A DNA stretch of 64,000 bases from Oceanispirochaeta crateris (lineage in GTDB: Bacteria; Spirochaetota; Spirochaetia; DSM-2461): positions 620,001 to 684,000 of the forward strand of contig NZ_CP036150.1 of the NCBI RefSeq assembly GCF_008329965.1, written 5' to 3'. The first letter of the stretch is position 1, and every line of letters begins with the position of its first letter. The notes below the pieces were generated by a model. The model was given only the letters and a program-made list of their open reading frames with translations, did not search any database and was not told the origin of the DNA. Made by a program: the position numbers and the translations under genes. Shown here in pieces: positions 42,721 to 61,434 of the stretch.

Positions 42721-42726
42721 GAGGCC

Positions 42727-42756
42727 ATCATATCAGATCGCCCTTCATAAAGGCAA
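42727..42756 (-). promoter_or_regulatory. Promoter of thiI; leaderless start likely
   Basis: On the minus strand, TTGCCT (42751-42756) and TATGAT (42727-42732) are 18 bp apart, and the -10 box ends six bases before the ATG at 42720. No Shine-Dalgarno sequence fits. It abuts the desulfurase stop codon. Confidence 0.6.
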
Positions 42757-43908
42757 TCAGCGGATGGCCCGGCCCAGCAATGAGGCCTGTTCTTTTAAAA
42801 CTCTCAATAAGGAGCTGATTTCCTCCTCTGTTGTGTTAGGTCCCTGGGAGATGCGAATGGAGCTGAAGGCCGTTTTAGCATCGATACCCATGGCTTCCAA
42901 ACCTCTGGTACGGCTCTTCTTCTGGCTTGAGCAGGCAGATCCCGTGGAGAGGGCAAAACCAGCCTCATCCATGACCCGTACCAGAACTTCTCCCGGCAGT
43001 GGAGGAAGGGCACAGTTGAGTATCCAGGGGGTGAAGTGGAGGTCATTCTCCAGTCTCTCTTGGGGGAGAAGTCTGGCTCCGGGGATTTCCTTGATGCCAT
43101 TCATCAGAAGAATCATCCTCCTGCGGGCGGCCTGGGAACATTCCAATGCCTGGGGAACTCTCTCCAGAGCCACTGTCATCCCAGCAATTCCCGAAAGATT
43201 TTCTGTTCCCGGTCTGAGTCCTCTTTCATGGTCTCCACCGGCATAGACTCCAGAGAGGGGCTTCTTTTCGTATAAGAGACCGACCCCGCGGGGACCTCTG
43301 AACTTATGGCTGCTGATCGAGGCTGAATCGATTCCCAGGGAGCCGAGGTTCAGGGGGAGTTTCCCCGCATATTGAACAAGGTCGCTATGAAAGTGGATTG
43401 GTCTCTTTGATTCGGCTTTTCTAGTCACTTCAACAAGATCATTCAGGGGTTGTATTACACCGCTTTCATTATGAACGCCCATGATAAGCACCATTTTTGT
43501 ATCTTCTGTTAAAAGGCGGCTCAGCTTTTCGGGGCGGATCAAACCGTTTGAACCGGCTTTGATGACTTTCACGTCCCAACCCTGTTTACTGAGGGCCTGG
43601 GTGGGCTCCCAAACCGAGGGGTGCTCCATGCCGCTGACAATCACACGGCCCTTGTCCCGCCTCGTCAGAAGTGAGGATATGATCATATTGTTGGATTCTG
43701 TTCCCCCCGAAGTAAAGATCAACTCTTGGGGGGTACCACCCAGAATGGCCGCACAGCGGGAGCGCATTTCTTCCAGTTTCTCATGGGCCCTGCGTCCTTC
43801 CTGATGGAGAGACGAGGGGTTTCCATAATAAGTAAGGGCTGTTTCATTCATTATATTTTGTATATCCCCATAGGGAGGGGTCGTAGCGGCCCAGTCGAGG
43901 TAAATCAT
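42757..43908 (-). CDS. Cysteine desulfurase (NifS/IscS family)
   Basis: This 383-residue PLP enzyme removes sulfur from cysteine as a persulfide. The PLP lysine is in SISSHKFRGPRG (about residue 199) and the persulfide Cys is in STGSACSSQ (about residue 326). The short SACSS loop is the class II (SufS/NifZ) or compact type. It lies 36 bases upstream of thiI on the same strand, so sulfur delivery to tRNA thiolation is its likely job. Its start is opposite an ArsR gene, with about 95 bases between. Confidence 0.9.
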   Translation of the reverse strand: MIYLDWAATTPPYGDIQNIMNETALTYYGNPSSLHQEGRRAHEKLEEMRSRCAAILGGTPQELIFTSGGTESNNMIISSLLTRRDKGRVIVSGMEHPSVWEPTQALSKQGWDVKVIKAGSNGLIRPEKLSRLLTEDTKMVLIMGVHNESGVIQPLNDLVEVTRKAESKRPIHFHSDLVQYAGKLPLNLGSLGIDSASISSHKFRGPRGVGLLYEKKPLSGVYAGGDHERGLRPGTENLSGIAGMTVALERVPQALECSQAARRRMILLMNGIKEIPGARLLPQERLENDLHFTPWILNCALPPLPGEVLVRVMDEAGFALSTGSACSSQKKSRTRGLEAMGIDAKTAFSSIRISQGPNTTEEEISSLLRVLKEQASLLGRAIR

Positions 43909-43914
43909 CTTTTA

Positions 43915-43944
43915 ACAATACCAGAGCAGCCCTCAGGGGGGCAA
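43915..43944 (-). promoter_or_regulatory. Promoter of the cysteine desulfurase gene; leaderless start likely
   Basis: On the minus strand, TTGCCC (43939-43944) is followed after 18 bp by TATTGT (43915-43920), which ends six bases before the ATG at 43908. No ribosome site is visible. Confidence 0.55.
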
Positions 43945-43952
43945 GAGGATCT

Positions 43953-43980
43953 ATCTGACAGATTTTAATTGATTAAATCA
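43953..43980. promoter_or_regulatory. Two palindromes between the arsR-type and desulfurase genes (operator candidates)
   Basis: ATCTGACAGAT (43953-43963) and TGATTAAATCA (43970-43980) are both perfect 5-1-5 palindromes. The second overlaps the -35 box of the ArsR gene. ArsR/SmtB proteins typically bind such short inverted repeats in their own promoter. Confidence 0.5.
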
Positions 43981-43997
43981 GATTATTCTGCTAATTT
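43969..43997 (+). promoter_or_regulatory. Putative promoter of the ArsR gene; leaderless start possible
   Basis: TTGATT (43969-43974) and TAATTT (43992-43997) are 17 bp apart, and the -10 box ends six bases before the ATG. The -10 match is weak. Confidence 0.4.
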
Positions 43998-44003
43998 CTA
44001 TAT

Positions 44004-44315
44004 ATGGAAAATAAATGTAACTGTCCGGAAGAACTGGTGGAAGGATATGCCAGAAAATTAAAAGTTTGTGGTCACCCCCTCAGGCTCAAGATGCTGTGCC
44101 TGATAGAACGCCAGGACTGTTGTGTCTCAGAACTCTGGCAATGCCTGGATCAGCCTCAACCTGTGATTTCCCAGCACCTGGCAGTGTTGAAGGATAAAGG
44201 CATTGTGGATTCCGCAACGGAAGGGAACAAGAGGATCTACCGGATCGTTGACCCCTTTGTGCAGAATATCATTGCCGGGTTTGACGGTATCCTGCCCGAA
44301 AAATCTTCTCAGTAA
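44004..44315 (+). CDS. ArsR/SmtB-family transcriptional regulator
   Basis: This 103-residue winged-helix repressor has the recognition helix at DQPQPVISQHLAVLKDKGIV and a beta-wing EGNKRIYRI. The helix-3 region reads RQDCCVSELW, close to the ELCVC metal box of ArsR but with Ser at one Cys position. There are also Cys residues at positions 5 and 7 and others. It could sense a metal(loid), a persulfide or redox state. It is divergent from the cysteine desulfurase-thiI pair, which it may control, and is followed by a strong terminator. Confidence 0.88.
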   Translation: MENKCNCPEELVEGYARKLKVCGHPLRLKMLCLIERQDCCVSELWQCLDQPQPVISQHLAVLKDKGIVDSATEGNKRIYRIVDPFVQNIIAGFDGILPEKSSQ

Positions 44316-44326
44316 GAAAAACAGAT

Positions 44327-44353
44327 AACCGACTCGTAAGAGTCGGTTTTTTT
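44327..44353 (+). terminator. Rho-independent terminator of the ArsR gene
   Basis: AACCGACTC (44327-44335) and GAGTCGGTT (44340-44348) form a 9-bp stem with a GTAA loop, followed by seven T residues. Confidence 0.9.
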
Positions 44354-44386
44354 AGGCCCGGAGGATTTTTTTGAATTGGGTCTTGA

Positions 44387-45466
44387 TTAGCTTTTTTTGT
44401 AATGCCTATCCCAATGCAGGTAGAGGAAGAGGGTTACAACCAGCAAAAGAGCGATCAAAATGGATACATAACGCAGTGGACCCTTCACGAGAAGAAAGAG
44501 AAGTACTGCAAATCCCGCGACGATCTGCAGACCGATTATAATGGAGAGAATCTGCCTGGCATCCAGTTTCAGGTCCAGAAGTTTGTGGTGCATGTGCTCC
44601 TTGTCGGGGCTGAAAAAATGCATTCCCTTCCGGCGTCTGCGGAGCATGGCTGCCAGAACATCGGCGATGGGGATAAAGAGCATCACCACAGGCATGACCA
44701 GACTGTCTCCCGATTCCGGGCTTCCCAATAGAGGGAGGAGGGCCAGGATGAATCCCAGGCTTAGACTGCCCGAATCTCCCATAAATATTTTGGCGGGAGG
44801 AAAGTTGTAAAAAAGGTATCCCATAAGGGAGCCCAGAAGGGTAAAACTGATGATGGACAGCATTATATCGCCGCTGATGAGAAAGGCGATGCCATAGATA
44901 AAGCAGGCAATGGATGAGATTCCCGCGGAGAGTCCGTCCAGGCCGTCAATCAGATTGATTGCATTGGTCATACCCACCAGCCAAAAGAGGGTCAGTAAAG
45001 GGCCAAACCAGCTCAAATTGAGGGTGATTCCCCAAAAGGGAATCGTAAAAAAACGGATACCCGCACCCCCTAGGATCACGAGGAGGGCGGCAAGAACCTG
45101 ACCAAGGAGCTTTTTACGAGCCTTCATATCGGTAAAATCATCGAGAAGACCAATGATAAAAATCAGAATCACTCCCAATAAGATCAATAGGGGATTGTGA
45201 TGGGGGCTCAATCGGAATAAGACCGAAGAGTGCAGTAATTTTGATGTAACAAGGCTGGTGATGACAGAGGCGATGACCAATGAAGCCAGGATGCCGATGC
45301 CACCCAGACGGGAAATCAGTCCTGTATGGATCTTCCGCTCATCATGAGCATCATCGTACCAGTTTTTTTTATGTGATAAATGAATGAGTCCTGGAATAAT
45401 ATATAGGTTGAATAAAAAGGCCAAGGCTGTAGCTGTAAAAGCGAGTAATAGATTCTTTATTTCCAT
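44387..45466 (-). CDS. WecA/MraY-type polyprenyl-phosphate phospho-sugar transferase
   Basis: This 359-residue membrane enzyme has about ten helices and the superfamily's catalytic motifs: LLDDFTDMK (Asp-Asp near residue 106), NLIDGLDGL (about 165), FMGDSGS, and the HMHHKLL segment near the C-terminus. The His-rich site and absence of MraY-specific peptide loops favour WecA/TagO-like enzymes that start O-antigen or teichoic polymers on undecaprenyl phosphate. It could initiate the polymer of region 14-28 kb. AAGGG lies five bases before the ATG, and the promoter at 45505-45534 gives a short leader. Confidence 0.88.
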   Translation of the reverse strand: MEIKNLLLAFTATALAFLFNLYIIPGLIHLSHKKNWYDDAHDERKIHTGLISRLGGIGILASLVIASVITSLVTSKLLHSSVLFRLSPHHNPLLILLGVILIFIIGLLDDFTDMKARKKLLGQVLAALLVILGGAGIRFFTIPFWGITLNLSWFGPLLTLFWLVGMTNAINLIDGLDGLSAGISSIACFIYGIAFLISGDIMLSIISFTLLGSLMGYLFYNFPPAKIFMGDSGSLSLGFILALLPLLGSPESGDSLVMPVVMLFIPIADVLAAMLRRRRKGMHFFSPDKEHMHHKLLDLKLDARQILSIIIGLQIVAGFAVLLFLLVKGPLRYVSILIALLLVVTLFLYLHWDRHYKKS

Positions 45467-45504
45467 GAAAACCCTTGCTTTGTCTGATTCGTAATCTGAG
45501 AATC

Positions 45505-45534
45505 ATCATACCTTAGGGGTGCAAGCCTTGTCCA
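45505..45534 (-). promoter_or_regulatory. Promoter of the WecA/MraY-like gene
   Basis: On the minus strand, TGGACA (45529-45534) is followed after 18 bp by TATGAT (45505-45510), each matching five of six consensus bases. It shares its -35 bases with the divergent promoter at 45528. Confidence 0.65.
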
Positions 45535-45556
45535 GAAGGTAATCTTTTAATATATT
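45528..45556 (+). promoter_or_regulatory. Promoter of the gene at 45564; leaderless start likely
   Basis: TTGTCC (45528-45533) and TATATT (45551-45556) are 17 bp apart. The -10 box ends seven bases before the first ATG and no ribosome site is present. Confidence 0.6.
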
Positions 45557-45563
45557 CTCCACT

Positions 45564-46322
45564 ATGATGATACAAAAACAAATGATTTTATCAGTATTGG
45601 TGCTCTTGTCTGTTTCTGCTCTCTTAGGTGCAGATCCTTCGCCCTTGAAAGAGGGGTCTAACTACCTTGAACGGACTCTCAACTATGTTGAAGACAGTTC
45701 CAAGGTGGCACTCATGCCTGATTTTGCATCCAAACCCCAGTTGGAGCGAACGCTGAGAGAATTCAAACCCAGCGGGATTGTGGAACTCCTTTATACCATG
45801 CCTCTTCCCGAAACTGGGAATAAGGACATGATGCTCCATATTCTCCAGAGTCTCTCTGCCATCAGCACCCTGGAAGGCATCGAATACTGGTCAGGAAGCC
45901 GGCAGGCCATGTATCCCTATTTAGAGGAAGCCTATGCTGTAGAAAAAACAAGAAGCAGCCGCAAAGTGGCCGATCCTGTTTTTACAAGCCTGCCTAAGGG
46001 GCCTCAGACAATCTCGGTGTTTCAGAATGATACTACTTTTGGAAAAACCTGGTATGATGTGAGTTTTGAGGTCAAAGGCAATTCGATCCGTTTGTCCATG
46101 ATCAACAGGACGACTATCCGTTATAAGTTTTTCCCCGTCCTGCGGGATGAAAGGCTCCTCATCGAGATGATCATCATTCCCCGGGAAGAGGACCTCCTGT
46201 TCTATGGAATGGCCGCCTTCCGTCTGGGGAATACCTTTGGAATTGAAATAGATTTGGATGAGTCCTTTGATCACAGGATGAGTGCTCTCCAGACCTGGTT
46301 TTCAAATCAGACCTACCCTTAG
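45564..46322 (+). CDS. Exported hypothetical protein (possibly DUF6675-type)
   Basis: This 252-residue protein has a signal peptide to about residue 23 (VSALLGADP). It includes ILQSLSAISTLEGIEYWSGSR near the middle and repeated beta-strands in the C-terminal half (KTWYDVSFEVKGNSIRLSMIN). I think it matches the spirochaete DUF6675 family, but I am not certain. It is probably periplasmic. It is transcribed away from the WecA-like gene and converges with the barrel gene across a hairpin. Confidence 0.6.
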   Translation: MMIQKQMILSVLVLLSVSALLGADPSPLKEGSNYLERTLNYVEDSSKVALMPDFASKPQLERTLREFKPSGIVELLYTMPLPETGNKDMMLHILQSLSAISTLEGIEYWSGSRQAMYPYLEEAYAVEKTRSSRKVADPVFTSLPKGPQTISVFQNDTTFGKTWYDVSFEVKGNSIRLSMINRTTIRYKFFPVLRDERLLIEMIIIPREEDLLFYGMAAFRLGNTFGIEIDLDESFDHRMSALQTWFSNQTYP

Positions 46323-46337
46323 GCCTTAACTGGAAAA

Positions 46338-46363
46338 TACCAAGGCAATACCATGCCTTGGTA
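46338..46363 (-). terminator. Hairpin between convergent genes, likely terminator of the Omp85-like gene
   Basis: TACCAAGGC (46338-46346) and GCCTTGGTA (46355-46363) form a perfect 9-bp stem with an eight-base loop. On the minus strand it is followed by ATTTTCC, so it suits the gene that ends at 46376; it may also stop plus-strand transcripts. Confidence 0.6.
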
Positions 46364-46375
46364 GTATCAATCTCC

Positions 46376-47695
46376 TCAGTAATGGAGTGAGCTGGTAATT
46401 TCCAGCTCATATTTACCCAGATCGCTAAAAGACAGGTCATTACTCAAATCCACACCAATAGAGGCTCTGGCATGAAGGCCTTTCAGCTTGTCCAGATAGA
46501 GTATGAAATCCGCACCTGTTCCATAGCGGAGGTCACTGTCCGGGTCTATAGATTTTCCATCCCTTTGTGCAAGGCCAATGTCAAAAAAGGGCTGAAACTG
46601 CGCTTCTCCCACTCCTTCCCATTGGATCACTCCCAGGGTCAGGTCGTTACTTAGAAAAAATCCAGTAACTCCGTACATGGTGCTGTCTTCAACCCCTCTT
46701 AAATAACTTCCCAGGCTGTTTATATCATCATTGAAACTGATCGTTCCCGATGCCCGGCCGGAGTAGTTGACTCTGGAATTGATGATCTTATAGACACTGG
46801 TCTGTCCATCCATATACACCTTGACCTGGTCGCTGGCTCCGGATCTGCTGATATAACGGATGGAGTTTCCCAAAGAGGCACTGAATCCTTCTCTAAAATT
46901 ATTCTTCCAGTCTACCTTGCTGTAGCCGCCCCCATGATTGAATGAGAGGTAGAAGGGCTCTTCATTACCATCTGTACCGGTCCCGCTGTATCCGTAGTTG
47001 ATTCCGATGCCGGGGCTCACCTTATAGTAGTACTTATTGTCCGGACCGAAGGGGAAGGTTGTGGTCACATCCGCCGAAGTGTTGTAGTAGGTATACTTTT
47101 CAAGGTATTCTCCATCTTCCTTCTTTTCGGCATAGGCTTTCTGCTGCATGATTCCGAAATCGTATTCTAAATTACCGATTTTTACGTCGTTCAGCTGGGG
47201 ATTGAAGGTCCAGGAGGTATTGTTCCAGCCCTGATCTTCGCTGTCGTACTTGAAGGTGATATTGGTTCCCAGATAGAGGTTGTTCAAACTTCCAAAGGCG
47301 TTGTTGTAATAGACCTTCATTCCCAGACGGAAGCCCTCGTTTGAGTTGTATTTGGGGTACGGTATGGGATATATGTTCCAGCTGTCTTCTACCTTTACAA
47401 GAACTGAATAGAGGATTGTTTCCTCCTCTTTTTCTTCTTGAGAGAGAGTGAGGCTTACATCGTTGAAGACTCTGAGGTTGATCAGATCCTGTTGCTGCCG
47501 CAAAACGGCCTGTTCCAGACTTTCCCTGTCGGAATACTCAGTTCCTTCTTTCAGATCCATTTCCCTAAGGAGTGACTGTTCCCGGGTTGTTCCGTCAATT
47601 TGAATAATAAATTGTTCCAGTTTATGGATTTCCTGAGCCATAGCGGTTCCGAGGAGGCTCACAAAAAGGGTTGCAAAGATCATTATTTTTTTCAT
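46376..47695 (-). CDS. Omp85-like outer-membrane protein with a single POTRA domain
   Basis: This 439-residue protein has a signal peptide to about residue 20 (TAMAQ). One POTRA-like domain lies at about 25-110, with the typical EGTEYSDRESLEQAVLRQQQDLINLRVFNDVSL pattern. A barrel of about 320 residues ends with LEITSSLHY, an aromatic C-terminus. A single POTRA and a short barrel distinguish it from BamA (five POTRAs) and TamA (three); it is closer to small Omp85 relatives. Function unknown, perhaps insertion or secretion of a specific partner. Confidence 0.7.
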   Translation of the reverse strand: MKKIMIFATLFVSLLGTAMAQEIHKLEQFIIQIDGTTREQSLLREMDLKEGTEYSDRESLEQAVLRQQQDLINLRVFNDVSLTLSQEEKEEETILYSVLVKVEDSWNIYPIPYPKYNSNEGFRLGMKVYYNNAFGSLNNLYLGTNITFKYDSEDQGWNNTSWTFNPQLNDVKIGNLEYDFGIMQQKAYAEKKEDGEYLEKYTYYNTSADVTTTFPFGPDNKYYYKVSPGIGINYGYSGTGTDGNEEPFYLSFNHGGGYSKVDWKNNFREGFSASLGNSIRYISRSGASDQVKVYMDGQTSVYKIINSRVNYSGRASGTISFNDDINSLGSYLRGVEDSTMYGVTGFFLSNDLTLGVIQWEGVGEAQFQPFFDIGLAQRDGKSIDPDSDLRYGTGADFILYLDKLKGLHARASIGVDLSNDLSFSDLGKYELEITSSLHY

Positions 47696-47768
47696 GACAT
47701 CACCCTATCACAGCCTGTTTGAATTTCACAAGCCTTTTGCTCCCCCAGTGAGCCTGTTTTTTTACCCC

Positions 47769-47798
47769 TTTACCCCCAGGGTAAAGGAGTTTTATACT
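47769..47798 (+). promoter_or_regulatory. Promoter of aroB; leaderless start likely
   Basis: TTTACC (47769-47774) and TATACT (47793-47798) are 18 bp apart and the -10 box ends six bases before the ATG. A GGAG lies 15 bases from the ATG and would be upstream of the transcription start. Confidence 0.55.
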
Positions 47799-47804
47799 CC
47801 TGTT

Positions 47805-48824
47805 ATGGAAATCATTAAATCATTCAGTTTCGGCGGTTTTCCCAGTAAAGCCGTATTATGCAATAAACAAGAACTTCTCCCCTCTGATACGGCCCTCTTT
47901 GTCGCCGATCATCATACCCGGGAACTCATCAGCCTTCCCGAGGGCCTGGCTGAGGTCACCCTCATCCCCGGTGAAGAAGGAAAACAGTGGGATGCGGTAG
48001 ACAAAATCCTGAAGACCGCCATGGAAGAAGGCCTGGCCCGGGATTCCCTGATCTGCGGCGCCGGGGGAGGGGTGGTCACCGATATGACCGCCTTTGCCGG
48101 TAGCCTGTATATGAGGGGCTGCCGGGTGATCCTCATCCCCACTTCACTTCTGGCCATGGTGGATGCCGCCCTAGGGGGAAAGACAGGCATAGATGCCGGT
48201 GTATATAAGAATATGATCGGGACTTTTTATCCTGCCGAAGAGGTTAGAATCTGTCCGGAACTCCTCAGGGATCTTCCCCTCAAGGAGTATATGAATGGAT
48301 TGGGTGAGGTCCTAAAGACGGCCATCATCGGCGATGCCGACCTGCTCCAGCTCTTAGTCGAAAAGAGAGAGGCCGTTCTGGCCCGGGATACGGAGATCCT
48401 TTCGGAGATCATCAGACGCTGCATTCTCGTAAAGGGTGCTCTGGTGGAGGAAGATCTGAGAGAGAAGGGCCGGAGGGCTTTTTTGAATCTGGGGCATACC
48501 TTCGGTCATGCTCTGGAAGCGGTGAGCGAGTTCCGTTGGAGCCATGGTGCTGCCGTTATCTGGGGGACCGTAAAAGCCCTGGAGGCCTCTGTTCGTCTCG
48601 GTCTGGCATCTCCTGACTGGGCGGAGGAGATGAAAAGTCTTTTTCTCGGTTATGGATATGAACTGGAGGCCTTGGAAGATCCTCAAGCGATCCTGGAGGC
48701 TATGAAGATGGATAAGAAGAAGCAGAAAGGCAAACTCCGTTACATCCTTCCCGCAGGGCCTCAGGATATTCGCATTGAATTCCTGGACCCCGACTTTGTA
48801 TTGGAAGTCCTTAAAGTGAAATAA
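47805..48824 (+). CDS. aroB: 3-Dehydroquinate synthase
   Basis: This 339-residue enzyme makes dehydroquinate in the shikimate pathway using NAD and a metal. It has the Gly-rich GAGGGVVTDMTAF, PTSLLAMVDAALGGKTGIDAG, and the metal ligands Glu in NGLGEVLKTAI and the two His in LNLGHTFGHALE and FRWSHGAAV. The longer frame upstream to 47694 overlaps the divergent barrel gene's start and has no family similarity, so the ATG at 47805 is the start. It overlaps the convergent helicase gene by 14 bases. Confidence 0.93.
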   Translation: MEIIKSFSFGGFPSKAVLCNKQELLPSDTALFVADHHTRELISLPEGLAEVTLIPGEEGKQWDAVDKILKTAMEEGLARDSLICGAGGGVVTDMTAFAGSLYMRGCRVILIPTSLLAMVDAALGGKTGIDAGVYKNMIGTFYPAEEVRICPELLRDLPLKEYMNGLGEVLKTAIIGDADLLQLLVEKREAVLARDTEILSEIIRRCILVKGALVEEDLREKGRRAFLNLGHTFGHALEAVSEFRWSHGAAVIWGTVKALEASVRLGLASPDWAEEMKSLFLGYGYELEALEDPQAILEAMKMDKKKQKGKLRYILPAGPQDIRIEFLDPDFVLEVLKVK

Positions 48825-51291
48825 AGCTGTCCACTCTCCGGTAGGCCTTGTTGACCAGGCCCCATTGTTCTCCCTCCATCTCACTGGAGACTTGGTCTGC
48901 CAGGAGTTCCAGTGAGGCCAGGGATTCGTTGACAGCGGAGGTAAAGTTGCTGACAGAGCGGAACCAAAAGTGTCCTTCTCCATCGGTCTGAAGTGAAATG
49001 ATACCGTAGGATGATTTTTTCCTCTTCCCCGACGATGAAATCTTCAGGAGGATGTGCATATTTTCAGCCAGTTCGTTCATGTGTTTGTTGTTTTCTATGC
49101 TGAAATTCTTACTGGGGATTCCCGAGAGGATATCTTTTTTGGGGTTAATCTTCGTGATGATCTTAAACATCAGACTCAAGGGGGTTCCTTTGAGTATTTC
49201 ACGTCCATCCCAACTGAGAATTCCCTTCATTCCCTTGTAGTCAGGCCACTGATCGGGGGCCATATTTTTTAATTCCTTCCAGGCCGAAGTCCAGTCGATG
49301 AGGGCCATTTTTTTCTTGCCCTTCTTGGGTTGAACCACAGGAAAGGACGTTTTGCCAATGGTGATCCCCTGACTTGTATCCCTTTTCTTCTTTTCCTTGA
49401 TCCGGCCGACTCCCTGAGGTTCCAGCTGTAGAGCTAAATCCCTATTGGTTTTGCTGATCAGCTCCCTTGTGAGGGGAGAGACCGAACGGGCGTAGGTCTG
49501 GCTGGTACGGACAATCTCACCGGCTACAATAAAGGGCGGACTCTCTCTGAACATGGTTGAACCGGGATGGATCAGAATCCTGTCTGCCGTGAGGCTTTTG
49601 TAACTGCCCCGGCCGGAACGGACACAGACAAACTGAATGTTTCCCCGGGCGCAGGCGCAGAGGTAGTCATCTAGAGATCCCCCCTCGCCGATGGGTATGC
49701 CCATGCCTCCCACAATGTCTTCAAGCTGTCCCTGAATATTAACAAGCTCCGACATGGTTCTTTCTTCAAGGTAGTAACGTTTGCAGAAGGCACTCTGGTC
49801 ACTGCTGGTGTTGAATCCCTCAAAGAGTTTTAAGTAGGCCGCAAAATCCCCTCTGTTGTCCCTGAAGTGGTGGTGGGCCCGTCGGGCTTCCATCTCTTCA
49901 CCCTGGGGCAGGAGGTAGGGGCTGTTGGTACTGAGAAAGGCCGCGGCGATCAGGGTTTCCCTGATGACGCTTGGATAGTTCATGATGGATTCGACGATCA
50001 TCCTGGCATGGCGGGGCATGAGGGGGAAGGGGGTCATCATCCGGCCTACGGCGGTGAGTTTATTGCTGTTGTCCAGAGCATCCAGGAGTTTCAGAGTTTC
50101 TACCGCTCCCATAATGCCCTTCCGGCCCGGGGGAGAGATGAAGTCAAAGCTCTGGAAGTTGCTGATGCCCAGTTCCGCCATCCTCAAGACGACCTCAGCC
50201 AGGTCTGTCCTGTAGATTTCTTCTCTTGTAAAGAGGGGCCGGGATGTGAAGGAATCTTTAGGGTAGAGGCGGTAGCAGGTACCCGGTTGGGTTCGTCCCG
50301 CCCGACCTCTCCTTTGATTGGCAGAGGCCTGTGATATTTCCGTTTCGACCAGGGAGGATGTAAAGGTTCTTGGATTATAAAAATTCTGTTTTGCCAGACC
50401 AGAGTCGATTACGGTAGTGATTCCCTCAATGGTCACAGATGTTTCGGCAATGTTTGTGGAGACAACCACCTTGGTTTTTCCAAAGGGCGTCTTGGTAAAG
50501 ATCCGTTCCTGCTCTTCCTTGCTGAGGCGGCCGTAGAGTGGCTGGATGACCAGCTTTTTCTTAACAGAAGACAGGTTCAGCATGGCGATTGTATCTTTGA
50601 TGATTTTTTCGCCCGACAGAAAAATCAGGATGTCACCCTTACGACGGTCATTGACAGCCCGTTCCACTATGGTGGTGATTTTTGCTGCCAGCTGATCCGG
50701 ATCACCCAGGGTGGCCGGAGGGTCATAAACCATGGCTACAGGATAGACCGGGGTTTCTATTGTCACCACGGGAGCCCTGTCAAAGTACTCGGAAAACATG
50801 GCTGCATTGATGGTTGCCGAACTGATGATAACCTTGAAGTCGGAACGTTCGGCTAGAATGGTTTTTAAGAGACCCAGAATAAAGTCGATGTTCAGGCTGC
50901 GTTCATGGGCCTCATCGACCATGATGACAGAATACTGATGGAGTAAAGGGTCTGTCTTCATCTCCTGTAGGAGAGTCCCGTCGGTCATGATTTTCATCCG
51001 AGTTTCGGGGAGGGTATTGTCTTCGAAGCGCATCTTGTAACCCACCATTCCGGGTACCTTGCTGCCTGTCTGACGGGCAATGTAGTCACACACCGAGAGG
51101 GTGGCAATACGTCGAGGTTGGGTCACTCCGACCATTCCCCGGGACGTGTATCCCGCTTCATGAAGGATCAGGGGGATCTGGGTGGTTTTACCCGATCCTG
51201 TGGGGCTTTCCACCACCACAACCTGATGTTCTTCAAGACTCTTTAGAATACGGGCTTTTTCCCGGTATACCGGGAGTTCTTTAAAATTCAA
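48811..51291 (-). CDS. DEAH-box RNA helicase (HrpA-like, short form)
   Basis: This 826-residue helicase shows Walker A ESPTGSGKTTQIP (about residue 33), TQPRRIA, the DEAH motif in VMVDEAHERSL, SATINAAMF and the C-terminal RecA motifs STNIAETSVTI and QRRGRAGRTQPG. It continues through a winged-helix/HA2-like region. It lacks the long C-terminal extension of E. coli HrpA (about 1300 residues) and has its own C-terminus, so the type is HrpA-like but shorter. It overlaps hisS by four bases, suggesting co-transcription. Confidence 0.88.
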   Translation of the reverse strand: MNFKELPVYREKARILKSLEEHQVVVVESPTGSGKTTQIPLILHEAGYTSRGMVGVTQPRRIATLSVCDYIARQTGSKVPGMVGYKMRFEDNTLPETRMKIMTDGTLLQEMKTDPLLHQYSVIMVDEAHERSLNIDFILGLLKTILAERSDFKVIISSATINAAMFSEYFDRAPVVTIETPVYPVAMVYDPPATLGDPDQLAAKITTIVERAVNDRRKGDILIFLSGEKIIKDTIAMLNLSSVKKKLVIQPLYGRLSKEEQERIFTKTPFGKTKVVVSTNIAETSVTIEGITTVIDSGLAKQNFYNPRTFTSSLVETEISQASANQRRGRAGRTQPGTCYRLYPKDSFTSRPLFTREEIYRTDLAEVVLRMAELGISNFQSFDFISPPGRKGIMGAVETLKLLDALDNSNKLTAVGRMMTPFPLMPRHARMIVESIMNYPSVIRETLIAAAFLSTNSPYLLPQGEEMEARRAHHHFRDNRGDFAAYLKLFEGFNTSSDQSAFCKRYYLEERTMSELVNIQGQLEDIVGGMGIPIGEGGSLDDYLCACARGNIQFVCVRSGRGSYKSLTADRILIHPGSTMFRESPPFIVAGEIVRTSQTYARSVSPLTRELISKTNRDLALQLEPQGVGRIKEKKKRDTSQGITIGKTSFPVVQPKKGKKKMALIDWTSAWKELKNMAPDQWPDYKGMKGILSWDGREILKGTPLSLMFKIITKINPKKDILSGIPSKNFSIENNKHMNELAENMHILLKISSSGKRKKSSYGIISLQTDGEGHFWFRSVSNFTSAVNESLASLELLADQVSSEMEGEQWGLVNKAYRRVDSFISL

Positions 51292-52595: not shown

Positions 52596-52626
52596 ATACC
52601 TATATTGACCTTTTACACGAGGAAAT

Positions 52627-53826
52627 TCAAGCCTTACTTTTTCTCTCGGGCAGACGGCTTTCCAGGGCAATGGTGATAAGGAGGGTGAGAAATAGAAGGG
52701 GAATGACCCCAAAAGCGGCCTTGAGTCCCCAGGTATCCCCAATCCAGCCCATGACCCATACGATGATTGAAAATCCAGGGATTCCAGCTGTTGACAGGAG
52801 GATGAAAAGCATGGTGGAGTCTCCCTCCATCCTGTCGGCCGCATAGGATTGTATGGACGGCCAGAAGCAGGCCACAGCCAGTCCGGCAAAAAACAGGAGG
52901 ATCATCAGGGGAATCAATCCTTTTAACCAGAAAAATCCCAGGCTGAAAAGGAGTCCTCCCAAGGCGGAGAAGATTATAAGAGCAGCCAGATGGCTCTGTT
53001 TGATCCATCCGCTTGCCAGTCTGCCAGTGATCATGCCCAGGGCGAATAAGGCCGTTCCAAGAGCCCCTGCCCGGGGAAGGGTTTCGTAATAAAGCTGTAT
53101 ATAGCTGGCACTCCAGAAGGTGTAGGCCGCTTCGGTACCGCCGCCGCAGAGCATGGCCAGGGCAAAAACCCAGAAGCGTCTCTTTTTAATTAAATCCTTG
53201 GTGTGAGAGAGGGGATTCTTGTAACTGTTATCAGGAATCTGTCCTGTTTTATGGGCATGACGGCTGCTGAAGAGAAAGAAAAATGAAATCATTGTGAATA
53301 CAAATGCCAAACCCGTTAAAATCGCTCTCCAGGGAATGTTCCGTGACAGGAGTTCTCCCACTGACAGGACTGTCATCAGTACTCCCATGGAAAAAAAGGC
53401 GTTCACCACATTGAGGTAACGCCCCGAGTCCTTTGGATGGAGGTCCTGCACAAGAGGATTGATCAAGGCTTCCAGAAGCCCCCCTCCCAGGCCAATGAGG
53501 ATCATCGCCGCCAGAATGACGGGGTAGCTGGGAGCCGCTGCATAAACAAACAGACCGGCGGCAAGGAGAAATCCTCCTGTATTCAGCAGGGCTGTTTTTC
53601 CAAAGCGGGAAGCGGCCAGACCGCTGATCAAAAGAACGGCAATCAAGAGGATGGTGCGTACCGCTTCGATCCCGCCCCCTTCAGAGAGGTTCAAATTCAT
53701 CTCTTTCATCAGGACTATCAAACAAATGGGAGTGGCTACCATACTGGCCGAATACGCCATAAGACTCACCGAACTGGCAATGTCCATGGTGGTCATCTTA
53801 AGGCTGCTTGGTTTCATTTCATTCAT
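52627..53826 (-). CDS. Major facilitator superfamily transporter
   Basis: This 399-residue protein has twelve predicted helices, a Gly-rich helix 4 (AMILIGLGGGLLEALINPLVQDL, with an acidic residue) and a cytoplasmic midpoint loop. It resembles FucP/YfkF-like members, but the substrate is unknown. It has its own promoter between it and hydF. The start could also be at the Met of MKPSSL three codons later. Confidence 0.82.
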   Translation of the reverse strand: MNEMKPSSLKMTTMDIASSVSLMAYSASMVATPICLIVLMKEMNLNLSEGGGIEAVRTILLIAVLLISGLAASRFGKTALLNTGGFLLAAGLFVYAAAPSYPVILAAMILIGLGGGLLEALINPLVQDLHPKDSGRYLNVVNAFFSMGVLMTVLSVGELLSRNIPWRAILTGLAFVFTMISFFFLFSSRHAHKTGQIPDNSYKNPLSHTKDLIKKRRFWVFALAMLCGGGTEAAYTFWSASYIQLYYETLPRAGALGTALFALGMITGRLASGWIKQSHLAALIIFSALGGLLFSLGFFWLKGLIPLMILLFFAGLAVACFWPSIQSYAADRMEGDSTMLFILLSTAGIPGFSIIVWVMGWIGDTWGLKAAFGVIPLLFLTLLITIALESRLPERKSKA

Positions 53827-53832
53827 GGGGCC

Positions 53833-53861
53833 ATCATAAACCGGAATGGTGGCTCATACAA
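53833..53861 (-). promoter_or_regulatory. Promoter of the MFS gene; leaderless start likely
   Basis: On the minus strand, TTGTAT (53856-53861) is followed after 17 bp by TATGAT (53833-53838), ending six bases before the ATG. The stretch around the -10 and ATG is almost identical to that of thiI. Confidence 0.6.
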
Positions 53862-53921
53862 TCCTTGATTTTTCCCATTCATCAACCCAGGACCTATTCC
53901 TCCAGACGCCTAATTGGGGTC

Positions 53922-55136: not shown

Positions 55137-56461
55137 ATTTTTCCTCCCGAGGTTAAATGGTGTAGATGAAGGCGGTCTTCCAGCTCTTTGAGGTCCATGC
55201 TGCTGTTTTGTGATAACCATTGAATCAGCTCCTGCCTATCTTTTAAACCGGCTTTTCGCAGGAGAGGGAGCAGTTCTTTTACATTCTGGTAACCCAGGGG
55301 CTCCCTCAGAGTATTGATCAGGGCCGATGAATTGACAAGGTGTTCCTCCATGAGGGCTCTATCAGGCTTTAAAGCCGGCAAAAGCCTCTCTGATGCGGTA
55401 GACAGTGCCTTGGAGAGTTTTTCACCCATGCGGATCATATGCTCCGCCATGAAGGGCAAGTAGGCATTGAGCTGCAGTTGACCTTCGCTGGCGTAGCGCT
55501 TGACCAGATCTGCGGAGGAATGAACATCCAGGGACAGACCGCGGATCAGTTCAATCAGCACCGGGTTGGCCTTGGAGGGCATGATGGTAGAGCCAAACTG
55601 CTGCTCCTCCTGGGGAATCTCTCCCAGAAAGGTAGAGGAATAGAGCAGAAGATCTCCGGTCCACTTGATAAGATTTTCGGCGCAGAGGCCTAAAACTCCG
55701 GCGCTTTCTGCCAGCGAATCCCAATGGGCTACCTGGTCGCAGAGGTTTTGACTCCGGCACAAGGGGAGACCCGTAATCCGGCGCAGAGCCTTTTCAGCGG
55801 CAAATACGTATTTTCTGGGGGCGGAGAATCCCGTCCCTACCGCCGTACCTCCCAGAGGAATCAGGCGCAGCCGTTCTCTCACCTTGTTCAGCCTCCAGCG
55901 GTCCCTCTCAACGGGTCCGGCCCAAGCGCCGAAGAGCTGGCCCAGAGTCATGGGCAGGGCATCCTGCATCTCAGTCCTTCCGGTCATGACCCACTCCTGG
56001 TAAAGAGTTTCACGGGACACCAGCTCTTCCTGAAGTCGGATTATTTTTGATTCTATCTCTTCTAAAAGACGGAAGCTCATGAGAATGACCGCCGTTGACA
56101 GGGTGTCGTTAGTGGACTGGTACAGCCCAATATGCTCCAGGGGATGGGCCTTGAACTGACCCTTCGTCCGGCTGTTGCCCAGGGATGACAGGACCTCACA
56201 AAAATTCATATGAAGGCTTGTTCCAGCCCCTCCCTGAGCCAAGGGGAGGGGAAATTGATTGTCATGGTCTCCTCTTATCACCTCAAGTGCCGCATCTTCC
56301 AGCAGGATAAAAAAGTCGGGAGGGTAGAGGGAGGCTTCTTCCTGTTGGGCCCGAATGCAGGCCAGCTTGACCTCTCCGTAGGCCTGTATCAGTTTTCTGG
56401 GGGTCTGTCCCTCACCCAGTATGGCCAGGGCTTTTTCGGTTTCTCTCCCGTAATGCCTCAT
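55133..56461 (-). CDS. Aspartase/fumarase-superfamily lyase in the hyd operon
   Basis: This 442-residue protein has the superfamily signature GSTIMPSKANPV (near residue 296), and GGAGTSLHMNFCE and HPLEHIGLYQSTND in the first two conserved regions. It resembles aspartate ammonia-lyase, which releases ammonia from aspartate. It lies between hydE and hydF with four-base overlaps on both sides, so it is part of the maturation unit; ammonia supply for the dithiomethylamine bridge is an attractive role. Argininosuccinate-lyase-like or fumarase activity cannot be excluded from sequence alone. Confidence 0.85.
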   Translation of the reverse strand: MRHYGRETEKALAILGEGQTPRKLIQAYGEVKLACIRAQQEEASLYPPDFFILLEDAALEVIRGDHDNQFPLPLAQGGAGTSLHMNFCEVLSSLGNSRTKGQFKAHPLEHIGLYQSTNDTLSTAVILMSFRLLEEIESKIIRLQEELVSRETLYQEWVMTGRTEMQDALPMTLGQLFGAWAGPVERDRWRLNKVRERLRLIPLGGTAVGTGFSAPRKYVFAAEKALRRITGLPLCRSQNLCDQVAHWDSLAESAGVLGLCAENLIKWTGDLLLYSSTFLGEIPQEEQQFGSTIMPSKANPVLIELIRGLSLDVHSSADLVKRYASEGQLQLNAYLPFMAEHMIRMGEKLSKALSTASERLLPALKPDRALMEEHLVNSSALINTLREPLGYQNVKELLPLLRKAGLKDRQELIQWLSQNSSMDLKELEDRLHLHHLTSGGKI

Positions 56462-57501
56462 CCTTGTACCCCTTCAAACCGGGGAGGATCGCCCCTGTCA
56501 AAACTAATCTCCCGTCCCAGAGGTCTTATCCTCATGGACAGGCATCCAATACACTGTATTCCGCTTTCATCGAGGCAGATTTTACCCGGATAGAGCTGGT
56601 AGTCCTTTTTGAATTCAATATGGGTCAGGTTGGGCATGAGAACATTTGCTCCGGCGGCAATCATCTGTTCCCTGCCATCCTTACAAAGAGACCCAGCCGC
56701 CGTTGTGGCCGGGATATGAGCCTCGGGAAGGGCCAGTCTCAACAACGCCACACCCCTGATTGATTCTTCTAGGGGCTTTTGAGCTGCCTTACCCAGAGGG
56801 GTCTGTGGGTGAGGGATAAAGGGGCCGATTCCAACCATATCCAGTTTGAGTCTTTGAGCCAAAAGCACATTCTCCAGCCTTGTTTCTGTTCTTTCTCCCG
56901 GCAGTCCCAGCATATAACCGCTGCCTGTTTGGAAACCGGCTTCCCGGATGTATTCCAATGCCATGAGTCGTGCCTTCAGTGTACTTCCATTCCTCACATA
57001 GGCATGAAGTTCAGGATCAGAGGTTTCAAAACGGAGGAGGTAGCGATCGCCGCCGGCAGCCTTCATCTCCTTATATTGGTTGAGGCTTCTCATTCCGCAG
57101 CTCAGGGTGACCGCCGCCTCGCCGCCGGTGAGGGCCTTAATGGCCTCTACCAGACGGCAAATCCTGTCATTGTCAAACTGGGGGTCTTCTCCTCCCTGTA
57201 ACACAAAGGTTCGGATTCCCCTGTCAAAACCGGCTTGAACGGCCTCCAGCAACATCTCCTCTTCAATGCGGTATCGATGAACCTCCCCATTGTCGTGACG
57301 AATCCCGCAATATAGACAGTTGCTCCCGCAATAATTTGTGTATTCCAGCAGTCCCCGGAGAAGAACATGGGGTCCGTGAACCCTGTGGCAAAGCTCTCCA
57401 CCCCTGGTGATGAGCTCTTGTGTGGTGGCATTGTAAAATAGTTCTTTAATCTCTTGTGGACTCAGAGCTTGTGGTCTCTCTTTGTTTTCCATACTTTGCA
57501 T
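56458..57501 (-). CDS. hydE: [FeFe]-hydrogenase maturation radical SAM enzyme HydE
   Basis: This 347-residue radical SAM protein has the CxxxCxxC cluster motif in YCGSNCLYCGIR near residue 57. It also has the TIM-barrel features FVLQGGEDP, SCGMRSLNQYKEMK and RFETSDPELHAY, all characteristic of HydE. It acts on the organometallic precursor made by HydG. Two starts are possible, at 57501 or three codons later at 57492; the AAGG upstream is spaced better for 57492. It follows hydG by four bases. Confidence 0.92.
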   Translation of the reverse strand: MQSMENKERPQALSPQEIKELFYNATTQELITRGGELCHRVHGPHVLLRGLLEYTNYCGSNCLYCGIRHDNGEVHRYRIEEEMLLEAVQAGFDRGIRTFVLQGGEDPQFDNDRICRLVEAIKALTGGEAAVTLSCGMRSLNQYKEMKAAGGDRYLLRFETSDPELHAYVRNGSTLKARLMALEYIREAGFQTGSGYMLGLPGERTETRLENVLLAQRLKLDMVGIGPFIPHPQTPLGKAAQKPLEESIRGVALLRLALPEAHIPATTAAGSLCKDGREQMIAAGANVLMPNLTHIEFKKDYQLYPGKICLDESGIQCIGCLSMRIRPLGREISFDRGDPPRFEGVQG

Positions 57502-57505
57502 AACC

Positions 57506-58888
57506 TTAAAGATAGATGTCCCGCTCGCCGGCGGTTATTTTTTCCAAGGACGATCGTATGTTTCCTTGGACAACAGAATCACTCTCTTCCTCTGTTAGTT
57601 TATTGATCAGAGCAAATCCCTTTTGGCGGGTTTCTTCACCGGCAAAATCCATCAAATACTCCGCAAATGAGACAATCCCGTTGGGAAGGCAGTAGTGTTT
57701 GATCAGTCCCGGTTTCGCAAGATCCATAAAGTCCTGCCCCACACGGCCTTTGCGGTAACAACCCGTACAGAAGGAGGGGATGAATCCCATGCCCACCATA
57801 TCTGCTAAGACCTCTTCCATGCTCCTGTGGTCTCCCAAGGCAAATTGCTGGTTTTCAGCTTCTTTTTCGGTATAACCCCCTATGGAAGTTTTGGAACCGG
57901 CAGAAACCTGGCTCACACCGTATCTGAATAGTTCCTGTCTTAGTTCTGCCGATTCTCTGGTGGAGAGTATGATCCCCGTGTAGGGTAGGGAAAGGCGGAT
58001 GACGGCAATGATGGTTCTGAAGGCGTCGTCATCGACGGGAAAAGGGACATTCTCTGTCAATTCAGAACCGGGAGCAGGCTCAATGCGGGGAACACTGACC
58101 GTATGGGGACCGCAGCCGTATAGCCTCTCCAGCTCTTCGGCATGTCTCATCATAGCCAGTACCTCGAAGCGGTGATCCCCCAGTCCGAAGAGAGCTCCTA
58201 TTCCGACATCATCGATGCCCGCTTCCATGGCGCGGTGCATCACAAACAGTCGGTTTTCATAGTTAGACTTGGGGCCGCTTATATGGTATTTCCTGTAAAG
58301 GTCTGGATCATAGGTTTCCTGAAAACAGATATAGGTGCCGATGCTGCACTCTTTCAGTTCTTTAAACTGATCAACACTCAAAGGGGCTATTTCTACATTG
58401 ACCCTACGAATGGAGGCTCCCTCTTCATTGACCGAATAGATTGTTTTGAGGGACTCTTTGAGGTATGCCAAGGGGTAGTGCCCCGATTCCCCTGAAAGGA
58501 GTAGGAGACGTTTATGCCCTTCCTTTAGAAGCATGCGGGTTTGCTGGGTTATTTCATCCTGATTCAGCTTACGGCGGGCAATATCCTTGTTGTCTTTTCT
58601 AAAACCGCAGTAGAGGCAGTTATTGCTGCAGTGATTGCCCGAATATAAAGGGGCAAAAATCACCATCCGTTTACCGTAAATTGTCTCTTTGGCTTTTTCC
58701 GCAGCGTCCATGATGAGGCGGATCTGTTTTTCGTCTCTTACAGCCAGTAGAGCGGCCGCCTCTTCTGTGTTCAATCCCTTGAGTTTTAAGGCTTTGTCTA
58801 AAATCGCTTCCATTTCCACCTGGTCCGGTGCCCTACGGGATGCCAGTTTTTTGAGCTCGGAGACGTTTAGAAATTCGGGGTAATCCAT
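57506..58888 (-). CDS. hydG: [FeFe]-hydrogenase maturation tyrosine lyase HydG
   Basis: This 460-residue radical SAM enzyme splits tyrosine to give CO and cyanide for the H-cluster. The radical SAM cluster is in HCSNNCLYCGFR (about residue 89). The C-terminal auxiliary cluster is in FCTGCYRKGR and a later Cys in HYCLPNG. The body includes LLLLSGESG and VPRIEPAPGSE. GGAGAG lies upstream of the ATG. It is first in the operon and is preceded by a structured leader of about 90 nt. Confidence 0.95.
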   Translation of the reverse strand: MDYPEFLNVSELKKLASRRAPDQVEMEAILDKALKLKGLNTEEAAALLAVRDEKQIRLIMDAAEKAKETIYGKRMVIFAPLYSGNHCSNNCLYCGFRKDNKDIARRKLNQDEITQQTRMLLKEGHKRLLLLSGESGHYPLAYLKESLKTIYSVNEEGASIRRVNVEIAPLSVDQFKELKECSIGTYICFQETYDPDLYRKYHISGPKSNYENRLFVMHRAMEAGIDDVGIGALFGLGDHRFEVLAMMRHAEELERLYGCGPHTVSVPRIEPAPGSELTENVPFPVDDDAFRTIIAVIRLSLPYTGIILSTRESAELRQELFRYGVSQVSAGSKTSIGGYTEKEAENQQFALGDHRSMEEVLADMVGMGFIPSFCTGCYRKGRVGQDFMDLAKPGLIKHYCLPNGIVSFAEYLMDFAGEETRQKGFALINKLTEEESDSVVQGNIRSSLEKITAGERDIYL

Positions 58889-58900
58889 GGTTTCTCTCCT

Positions 58901-58971
58901 TCAGGTCGTGACCCTGAGGTTCGTTGATTTTGATGAATCCTGGGCAACCGGCCTAAGCGGGGAACCTTCAG
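58901..58971 (-). promoter_or_regulatory. Structured hydG leader with two competing hairpins
   Basis: In the minus-strand RNA, CTGAAGGTTC (58971-58962) can pair with GAACCTCAG (58922-58914), with one bulged base. TCAGG (58917-58913) can instead pair with CCTGA (58905-58901), directly before the ribosome site AGGAGAG. The two stems share the bases at 58914-58917, so they cannot form together. I do not recognise a known riboswitch class. Confidence 0.45.
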
Positions 58972-58983
58972 ATCTTGTGTAGT

Positions 58984-59010
58984 ATTTTATGAGAGACTCC
59001 TTTGTGTCAA
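58984..59010 (-). promoter_or_regulatory. Putative promoter of the hyd operon
   Basis: On the minus strand, a perfect TTGACA (59005-59010) is followed by TAAAAT (58984-58989) with a short 15-bp spacer. Together with the ATG at 58888 this gives a leader of about 90 nt. Confidence 0.5.
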
Positions 59011-59091
59011 CCTGAATATGGGGCTATTCGATAAAATTGTAACGATTATTGACAAAGAGGAGCGAATTGGGAGAAAATATAGGGGAATAAT

Positions 59092-59126
59092 AAAAAAAAC
59101 CCCCTGTATTACACCATTACAGGGGG
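59092..59126 (-). terminator. Rho-independent terminator of the minus-strand glycosyltransferase
   Basis: On the minus strand, CCCCCTGTA and TACAGGGGG form a 9-bp stem with a nine-base loop, followed by eight T residues. It lies about 200 bases after the stop codon of the gene at 59323-60606. Confidence 0.85.
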
Positions 59127-59153
59127 CTCAAAAAACTGTCTATAAAGGAATCT

Positions 59154-59228
59154 ATGTCATTTGATCCAACGTTCCAGAAGGAGCGGGAATCCCCAAGCAG
59201 ACTAACAGACATGCTTAAGTTGTTTTAA
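59154..59228 (+). CDS. Possible 24-residue small protein
   Basis: A frame of 24 codons with Pro, Lys and Arg (MSFDPTFQKERES at the start) follows AAAGGA at five bases. A TATAAA hexamer lies nearby. Nothing else supports it and it may be chance. Confidence 0.2.
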   Translation: MSFDPTFQKERESPSRLTDMLKLF

Positions 59229-59322
59229 ATATAATTAGGATTGCCTAATTATGCAAGAAGAAAAATTAAAAAAATATGATAAATATAATAATCAATCATA
59301 TATGTCGATATAATATAACGTT

Positions 59323-60606
59323 TTAGTCTCTATCCTCACAATCTTGAATGTATTGGCTTCCAAAGACGTTTGAAAGAAGACTGATCAATTTTGTCTTCAA
59401 TGTGGCAAAACCATAGTACTGTAAAGCCAGCATATAGTTTTTTTCGCATATCCTTTTGACCTCATCTGGGTTGTCCAGCAGGTGCTGTACTTCCTTGATG
59501 GTTTCGTCTGTAATAAAATCATCAATCTCGACAACTTCGAAGCCCTTGGGTCTAATATCTGTTGCATAAATGGAATAGTTATTCACCAGAATGGGCTTCT
59601 TAAACCATATGGTTTCCAAAAACGCGTTTCCAAATCCCTCTATCAGGGACGGGTAGGTAACAAAATCGGCATAGGGATAAAGATCCTGAAGGGTATAAAT
59701 TTTGCGGCCATCGGAGGTCCTTCCTCTCTGATCCAAGATGATATCTTCCACAAAGATGGCGCGAACATTCAATAATCGGGCATAATCACGCACCCTCTTT
59801 TCATATTCGAATCCCTCATCTCCCGAAGCATGGGAGATGACAAAGGCCGCCTTCCTATCCAGGCGGGAGACCATTTCCAGAGCGTGTTCTATCCCCTTTC
59901 TCTGGACAACCCTCGTAGGCTGTAGAATCAAAAGTTCATCCTCTTCCACACCGAGGGCCTGACGGATATCGCTGTTATATTCGTCCTTACCGGGAGGGTC
60001 CATCTCAAAATGCATGACATTGGGTATCAGAGTTGATGAAATTCCTGTTCTCAAGGCCAACTGGTTCTGCCCAGAAGTGTTGATTACCACATGCTGAATA
60101 TTCCCGAGGTGGGGAGGATAGCTGGAGTTGATAAAATCCCAGACACAGTTTGTCAGAAACCGTTTTCGTTCCCAGAAAAAGTCGTGATGATGGGCGATGA
60201 TAGGCATACCAGTTTCGGCGGCAAACTCCGTAATGGCCAGACCCAGGGATACATTCAGGGGAATGGTCACCGCATTTTGAGGGATGAGTAAATCAATCTT
60301 GAATTTTTCAACAAACTGATAGAGGACTTTTTTGATTTCCTGGCGCCAGAAATGAAGCTCTCCGGTTAACTCCTCGGGACGGTTCTTCTGACTGAAGCAC
60401 TGCTCATAAATCTTCTTGGTAACGGGGTGCTGAAAATGCAGTTCAGGATATTCCATGGAAACAGCCGGATCACGGTCAAGCTCACCAGCCAGGTAAAAAT
60501 TATGGTTTCCCATATTCTTCAGGACTTCCGCCCATTTTGCAATTTCCAGGCTGACGCCGTCTGTCCCGGCAATTCTGAAGGAAACAAAGCCGATGTTTTT
60601 ATTCAT
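59323..60606 (-). CDS. GT4-family glycosyltransferase
   Basis: This 427-residue GT-B enzyme has an N-terminal domain starting GFVSFRIAGTDGVSLE. Its donor-binding domain has LQPTRVVQRKGIEHALEM and the loop YPSLIEGFGNAFLETIW. The N-terminal GTDGVSLE turn and the conserved HHHDFFWERKRF are unusual for polymer glycosyltransferases and may mark a small-molecule or compatible-solute type, such as those making mannosylglucosylglycerate; I cannot confirm that. GGAG lies upstream of the ATG. The neighbouring divergent HAD phosphatase and the GH2 beta-mannosidase fit a mannose-related role. Confidence 0.8.
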   Translation of the reverse strand: MNKNIGFVSFRIAGTDGVSLEIAKWAEVLKNMGNHNFYLAGELDRDPAVSMEYPELHFQHPVTKKIYEQCFSQKNRPEELTGELHFWRQEIKKVLYQFVEKFKIDLLIPQNAVTIPLNVSLGLAITEFAAETGMPIIAHHHDFFWERKRFLTNCVWDFINSSYPPHLGNIQHVVINTSGQNQLALRTGISSTLIPNVMHFEMDPPGKDEYNSDIRQALGVEEDELLILQPTRVVQRKGIEHALEMVSRLDRKAAFVISHASGDEGFEYEKRVRDYARLLNVRAIFVEDIILDQRGRTSDGRKIYTLQDLYPYADFVTYPSLIEGFGNAFLETIWFKKPILVNNYSIYATDIRPKGFEVVEIDDFITDETIKEVQHLLDNPDEVKRICEKNYMLALQYYGFATLKTKLISLLSNVFGSQYIQDCEDRD

Positions 60607-60716
60607 GAAAAGCTCCTGATATTCGTTCTATTTAAATATTATAGGTCAGATTATGACCCGATTCACTCCTTTTATTTATTCTATAGGTGAATTTACAAAC
60701 TTTATTGCTCTCTGCC

Positions 60717-60745
60717 TTGCCCTGCTGGTCAGCCTTTTTTATACT
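60717..60745 (+). promoter_or_regulatory. Promoter of the HAD gene; leaderless start likely
   Basis: TTGCCC (60717-60722) and TATACT (60740-60745) are 17 bp apart and the -10 box ends eight bases before the ATG. No ribosome site is visible. Confidence 0.6.
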
Positions 60746-60753
60746 CTGTCCTA

Positions 60754-61434
60754 ATGAAAAAATGCATTCACTCAGTGCCTGAGAATATCAGGTTGGCCTT
60801 TTTTGACCTGGATGAGACTCTGACATCACGGGATACAGATTTGCTCTGGGCACAATGGCGGAGCCGTAGGAGTCTTAAGGGGCTTCTGGATTTGTGGAGG
60901 CTGAGAAAAATTAACAGGCTCTATTACAAGCACTCACTGACTGATATAGAATACGGAGCCTATCATCTCGCCAGAGCCAGGTCCATGACGGTTCAGCAGT
61001 ACCACAATTTGGCTCAGGCCTTTGCCTTATTTGTTTCTAAAAAGTACATCTATAGGGAGATGAAAGATCTCCTGGAGGAAAATAAGCAAAAAGGGATCAG
61101 CAATGTTCTGATCACCGCACAGGATGCTGTGATCGCTGCGGCTCTGCAGAAGGTTTTAGGACTTGAGGATTGCCTCGCCAGCGATTATTGTGTGGATGGT
61201 AATGCGTTTACCGCTATGAGACAGCCCCTTTGTTTCAAAGAGGGTAAAGTCCATTGGGCCGGCCTTTATCTGAAACAGAAGTCTCTGAGTTGGGATCAGT
61301 GTGCTTTTTATACTGACAGCCTGAACGATCTACCCCTTCTGGAAGCCTGTGCCTGTCCCGTTGCCGTTCATCCAGGACCGGAACTGGAATCTTTGTCCCG
61401 GGAACGTTGCTGGTGTATTCTCAAACCGGTTTAA
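60754..61434 (+). CDS. HAD-IB family phosphatase
   Basis: This 226-residue hydrolase shows HAD motif I FFDLDETLT (nucleophile Asp at residue 17), motif II Thr in VLITAQD, motif III Lys in CFKEGKVHW and motif IV YTDSLNDLPLL. The helical cap after motif I is of the SerB/CicA subclass. It would hydrolyse a small phosphate ester; the substrate is unknown. It is divergent from the glycosyltransferase at 59323-60606 and may be its partner phosphatase. Confidence 0.85.
   Translation: MKKCIHSVPENIRLAFFDLDETLTSRDTDLLWAQWRSRRSLKGLLDLWRLRKINRLYYKHSLTDIEYGAYHLARARSMTVQQYHNLAQAFALFVSKKYIYREMKDLLEENKQKGISNVLITAQDAVIAAALQKVLGLEDCLASDYCVDGNAFTAMRQPLCFKEGKVHWAGLYLKQKSLSWDQCAFYTDSLNDLPLLEACACPVAVHPGPELESLSRERCWCILKPV

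Follow-up and report, generated by a model that had tools for sequence, protein, structure and literature searches.

The question raised by this locus is whether a group of genes in Oceanispirochaeta crateris is transcribed from promoters whose nearness to the start codon would make the mRNA begin at the ATG itself. In the window, that is, the whole stretch of 64,000 nucleotides analysed here (positions 620,001–684,000 of a single-contig genome of 4,012,482 bases), eight genes had been described in a first-pass annotation as leaderless, and their upstream regions contain the following elements.

thiI promoter, 42718–42756, minus strand: -35 TTGCCT (42751–42756), -10 TATGAT (42727–42732), ATG (42718–42720)
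Cysteine desulfurase promoter, 43906–43944, minus strand: -35 TTGCCC (43939–43944), -10 TATTGT (43915–43920), ATG (43906–43908)
ArsR-family gene promoter, 43969–44006, plus strand: -35 TTGATT (43969–43974), -10 TAATTT (43992–43997), ATG (44004–44006)
45564 gene (DUF6675) promoter, 45528–45566, plus strand: -35 TTGTCC (45528–45533), -10 TATATT (45551–45556), ATG (45564–45566)
aroB promoter, 47769–47807, plus strand: weak -35 TTTACC (47769–47774), -10 TATACT (47793–47798), ATG (47805–47807)
MFS transporter promoter, 53824–53861, minus strand: -35 TTGTAT (53856–53861), -10 TATGAT (53833–53838), ATG (53824–53826)
HAD-family gene promoter, 60717–60756, plus strand: -35 TTGCCC (60717–60722), -10 TATACT (60740–60745), ATG (60754–60756)
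rfbA -10 and start codon, 14185–14199, plus strand: TATAAT (14185–14190), ATG (14197–14199)

Pfam matches agree with the gene names (ThiI, class-V aminotransferase, ArsR HTH, DUF6675, 3-dehydroquinate synthase, MFS, HAD, and nucleotidyl transferase), the match of the ArsR gene (44004) being HTH_5. As described, a TAnnnT -10 ends 6–8 bases before the ATG in all eight genes: at exactly 6 in thiI (discriminator GGCCTC), the cysteine desulfurase, ArsR, aroB, MFS, and rfbA genes, at 7 in the 45564 gene, and at 8 in the HAD gene, which additionally has TACTCT at 6. A -35-like hexamer is present in seven of the eight, with a spacing of 18 bp in thiI, the cysteine desulfurase gene, and aroB (where it is weak) and of 17 bp in the ArsR, 45564, MFS, and HAD genes, and none was found upstream of TATAAT in rfbA. 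The reported lack of a Shine-Dalgarno (SD) sequence holds for seven genes; aroB carries AAAGGAG 15 nt upstream of the ATG, which is too distant for a normal SD and leaves its SD status ambiguous. rfbA is the weakest of the eight, and rfbA and aroB are the weakest pair. The recurrence of TTGCCC and TTGCCT as -35 elements proved to be local, the last three -35 bases being variable genome-wide. Likewise, the near-identity of the thiI and MFS promoters (TATGATGGCCTC vs TATGATGGCCCC) is real but without wider meaning: the shared string plus ATG occurs at only these two sites in the genome and is absent from most orthologs, and the similarity therefore looks coincidental.

The surroundings of these genes showed features of their own. 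At 43909–44003, two leaderless-type promoters, those of the cysteine desulfurase and ArsR-family genes, lie back to back within 95 bp; the 24 bp separating their -35 elements contain an imperfect palindrome (ATCTGACAGAT), possibly a shared ArsR operator. The segment 53922–58888 encodes HydF (Pfam match), a lyase, and two radical-SAM proteins similar to HydE and HydG, and looks like an [FeFe]-hydrogenase maturation cluster. The G+C content is 30–32% at 1–8000, vs about 43% in the genome sample and 46–52% at 36–60 kb, with a sharp change in composition at about 8 kb, ahead of rfbA.

Because the eight genes had been chosen by the reader of the sequence, genes outside the window provide the fair test. 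The genome sample consisted of sixty 20-kb stretches spread evenly plus the window (1.264 Mb, 31% of the 4.01-Mb genome), and genes were called from coding score and start-codon type alone, upstream signals never being used. The distance tests rest on ATG starts, GTG and TTG starts being few in the sample, and the expectation was the mean TAnnnT count at 9–59 nt. Among the 603 non-internal ATG genes outside the window, TAnnnT was found exactly 6 nt before the ATG in 41, vs 17.0 expected (p = 3.4e-7); the excess was marginal at distance 7 (25 genes, p = 0.04) and absent at distances 5 and 8. Operon-internal genes had no peak (4/259 at distance 6), and the distance-6 peak was absent from the E. 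coli control.

These counts bear directly on the explanation by chance, according to which the pattern would come from upstream DNA rich in A and T, read by someone alert to TATA-like strings. TAnnnT is indeed common, with about 17 occurrences at any given position in 603 genes, and the eight genes were a hand-picked set, but the excess sits at one exact distance and, in the comparison with shuffled upstream regions that had been proposed as a check and was run on the 31% sample, survives dinucleotide shuffling (41 vs 17.4, maximum 29 in 200 shuffles); the TTG partner at 17 bp and the ortholog conservation described below also speak against it. We regard chance as highly improbable, and at the level of the class it is refuted by the outside-window, relatives, matrix, and ortholog tests, while single genes may still be chance. 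Within the window, TAnnnT lies at exactly 6 nt in 7 of the 28 non-internal ATG genes vs 0.8 after shuffling (maximum 3 in 200), an enrichment over the rest of the sample (7/28 vs 41/603, p = 0.003). Thus the pattern was noticed partly because the window itself is enriched.

The peak genes differ from the others in two further respects. In 17/48 (35%) of them, TTG lies upstream of the -10 at a spacing of exactly 17 bp, vs 6.7% for TAnnnT elsewhere, and an SD is found in 4/33 (12%) of the unit-first peak genes vs 52% of all unit-first genes; similarly, 7% of the genes with a high promoter score have an SD, vs 64% of those with a low one. An AU-rich S1-binding site or non-SD enhancer near the ATG, acting in translation with no promoter involved, would be in keeping with the AU-richness near the start of bacterial non-SD genes (PMC5397173). 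Such a signal, however, fails to predict the 1-nt precision, the TTG at exactly 17 bp, or the signal's absence from operon-internal genes, and it appears very unlikely to be the source of the peak.

A promoter matrix (-35/-10) trained only on relatives, with pseudo-start controls, and then applied to this genome gave 21 matches at 6 nt vs 2.96 expected (p = 9e-12), and none at 6 nt in 200 kb of E. coli. The false discovery rate was about 0.3 at useful matrix thresholds; TAnnnT alone being common, the leaderless call for any single gene is uncertain. The excess over pseudo-starts corresponds to 7–8% of non-internal ATG genes, or about 1 in 13 unit-heading genes, and, roughly scaled up, to about 150 genes in the genome. 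Free EM mixture fractions for the "TA-led" share were discarded, as shuffled sequences also came out about 24% "TA-led". The first-pass annotation had proposed a substantial leaderless class using start-proximal promoters; the class is real, but it is modest in size and not the dominant initiation mode.

The same geometry was seen in relatives. In five sampled relatives (one of the same genus, two from other genera of the family, and two from other families of the class, with no genome from the Treponema-like family), TAnnnT at 6 nt was found in 50 genes vs 18.9 expected when pooled (p = 8e-10), and 19/50 of them carry TTG at 17 bp vs a background of 4.6%; single relatives differed, from p = 7e-7 (G010) down to not significant (G003). 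Among 80 orthologs of six window genes (thiI, cysteine desulfurase, aroB, HAD, DUF6675, and MFS), TAnnnT lies at distance 6 in 35 and at distance 7 in 22, with a mean of 1.6 at distances of at least 12, the counts being non-independent since the orthologs are related, although they come from five genera and their protein identities go as low as about 40%. Gene by gene, TAnnnT at 5–8 nt is present in 17/21 family orthologs of thiI, 16/20 of the cysteine desulfurase gene, and 15/21 of aroB, in 5/5 genus orthologs of the HAD gene and 6/6 genus members for DUF6675 (the -35 TTGTCC likewise in 6/6), and in 4/7 close orthologs of the MFS gene. The nearest matches of the window thiI are metagenome-derived Spirochaetales genomes, among them Spirochaeta sp. 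UBA5339 and Spirochaetaceae 4572_59. In the DUF6675 promoter (45520–45566), a block around CTTGTCCA..AAGG is kept in genus members and exceeds a bare -35; it is perhaps a candidate regulator site.

Such alignments also bear on the start codons themselves. If these were wrongly assigned, the real starts would lie elsewhere and the genes would be leadered, as might be suspected of the 45564 gene, which begins with ATGATG, and of the MFS gene, whose relatives start about 5 codons later. Nevertheless, for thiI and the cysteine desulfurase the alignment begins at residue 1 in almost every relative, and where start codons of HAD and MFS relatives are shifted, by up to 5 codons, the -10 moves along in most. 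Misassigned starts thus have little probability of explaining the pattern.

Outside the window, genes paired as reciprocal best hits were also concordant in leaderless status (p = 0.0045; sampled DNA, few genes). This status changes among the orthologs of some genes: aroB is SD-led instead in three genus members, and, for thiI outside the family, an SD is lacking in 9/10 orthologs that have a proximal -10 and present in 15/16 that do not. At L181–L183, the sequence TAGGAT located 6–7 nt before the ATG of the cysteine desulfurase gene can be read as a -10 and equally as a weak AGGA SD, and may represent a state midway between leaderless and SD-led initiation. Genes for SecA (L017:6088-8829), lysyl-tRNA synthetase (L051:7966-9555), a ptsI-type protein (L044:8454-10196), and a fur-type protein (L042:7431-7823) are also leaderless by score. 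It is somewhat probable that being leaderless is a lasting trait of individual Spirochaetales genes, housekeeping genes included, and that single genes have switched between leaderless and SD-led initiation. If so, they would offer a natural gene-by-gene series for the interconversion of initiation modes, and with start-proximal promoters conserved gene by gene, such switching becomes testable.

Transcription from a sigma70 promoter usually starts 7 bases past the -10. A -10 ending 6 nt before the ATG would therefore put +1 on the A of the ATG. We consider, with a probability of about 0.9, that these genes are leaderless and have start-codon-proximal promoters of the sigma70 type, the transcription start at the ATG being deduced from sequence. 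This reading is supported by the 1-nt positional precision, the -35 partner at 17 bp, and the depletion of SD sequences, as well as by the restriction to unit-heading genes, the presence in relatives, and the conservation among orthologs. The promoter would be an ordinary one (TTGnnn, 17 or 18 bp, TAnnnT), presumably recognized by sigma70, and transcription would start at the first base of the ATG or no more than about 2 nt away, yielding an mRNA with neither a 5' UTR nor an SD and translated from its 5'-terminal AUG. Leaderless mRNAs are probably translated via 70S ribosomes or an IF2-dependent route, and one of these is probably used here too. Selection appears to hold the promoter-to-start spacing, which is kept from genus to genus and is mostly retained where the start codon shifts.

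With the same promoters but a start a few nucleotides off, the transcripts would have a short leader of 1–8 nt and almost unchanged function. The minor excess at distance 7, the orthologs at 7–8, and the many Leptospira starts at 10 nt or less besides those at 0 (PMC5243855) fit such transcripts, but the mode lies sharply at 6, which places A at +1; we hold short leaders to be the less likely case, though a more serious one than any other alternative considered above. Under the preferred, leaderless reading, further upstream promoters may add leadered transcripts. The anti-SD tail of 16S rRNA is intact in the four rRNA copies (GGATCACCTCCTT), and the absence of an SD is thus gene-specific; since this machinery is intact and over half of all genes are SD-led, two initiation modes coexist.

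Leaderless initiation is a known but under-appreciated start of translation. For correcting start annotation, these data give a simple rule, i.e. TAnnnT 6 nt before the ATG, TTG at 17 bp, and no SD. Leaderless genes are already known in spirochaetes from dRNA-seq of Leptospira and the predictions of Zheng et al. (2011); what is new here, and supported, is a leaderless class in this Spirochaetales lineage with explicit promoter geometry and per-gene conservation. In the available part of Zheng et al. (PMC3160421), leaderless ("TA-led") bacterial genes were predicted from a signal resembling TAnnnT some 10 bp ahead of the start with no SD, and Spirochaetes are listed with 6 of 18 genomes and a mean of 3.9% (1.8–6.9%) of genes. 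The present class resembles those genes in its start-proximal TAnnnT and lack of an SD, and its share is near the Spirochaetes proportions; relative to that part of the source, it goes beyond the predictions in the resolved -35 at 17 bp, the gene-by-gene conservation, and the lineage. Leaderless mRNAs of Deinococcus and Mycobacterium/Actinobacteria also have a start-proximal TAnnnT -10 (PMC3160421; cited in PMC5243855), with a far larger share of genes, about 20–46%, predicted to be leaderless there vs roughly 5% here. In Borrelia burgdorferi, also a spirochaete, leaderless transcripts are said in a passing remark to be frequent (PMC10618245). In Leptospira interrogans, dRNA-seq identified 184 and 170 genes whose transcription start equals the translation start, close to our estimate of about 150, and about 440 genes with a start within 10 nt, while no sigma70 -10/-35 motif was recovered from the map (PMC5243855). 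Within the same phylum, Leptospira has mapped starts but no recovered motif, whereas the present lineage has a clear motif in its sequence.
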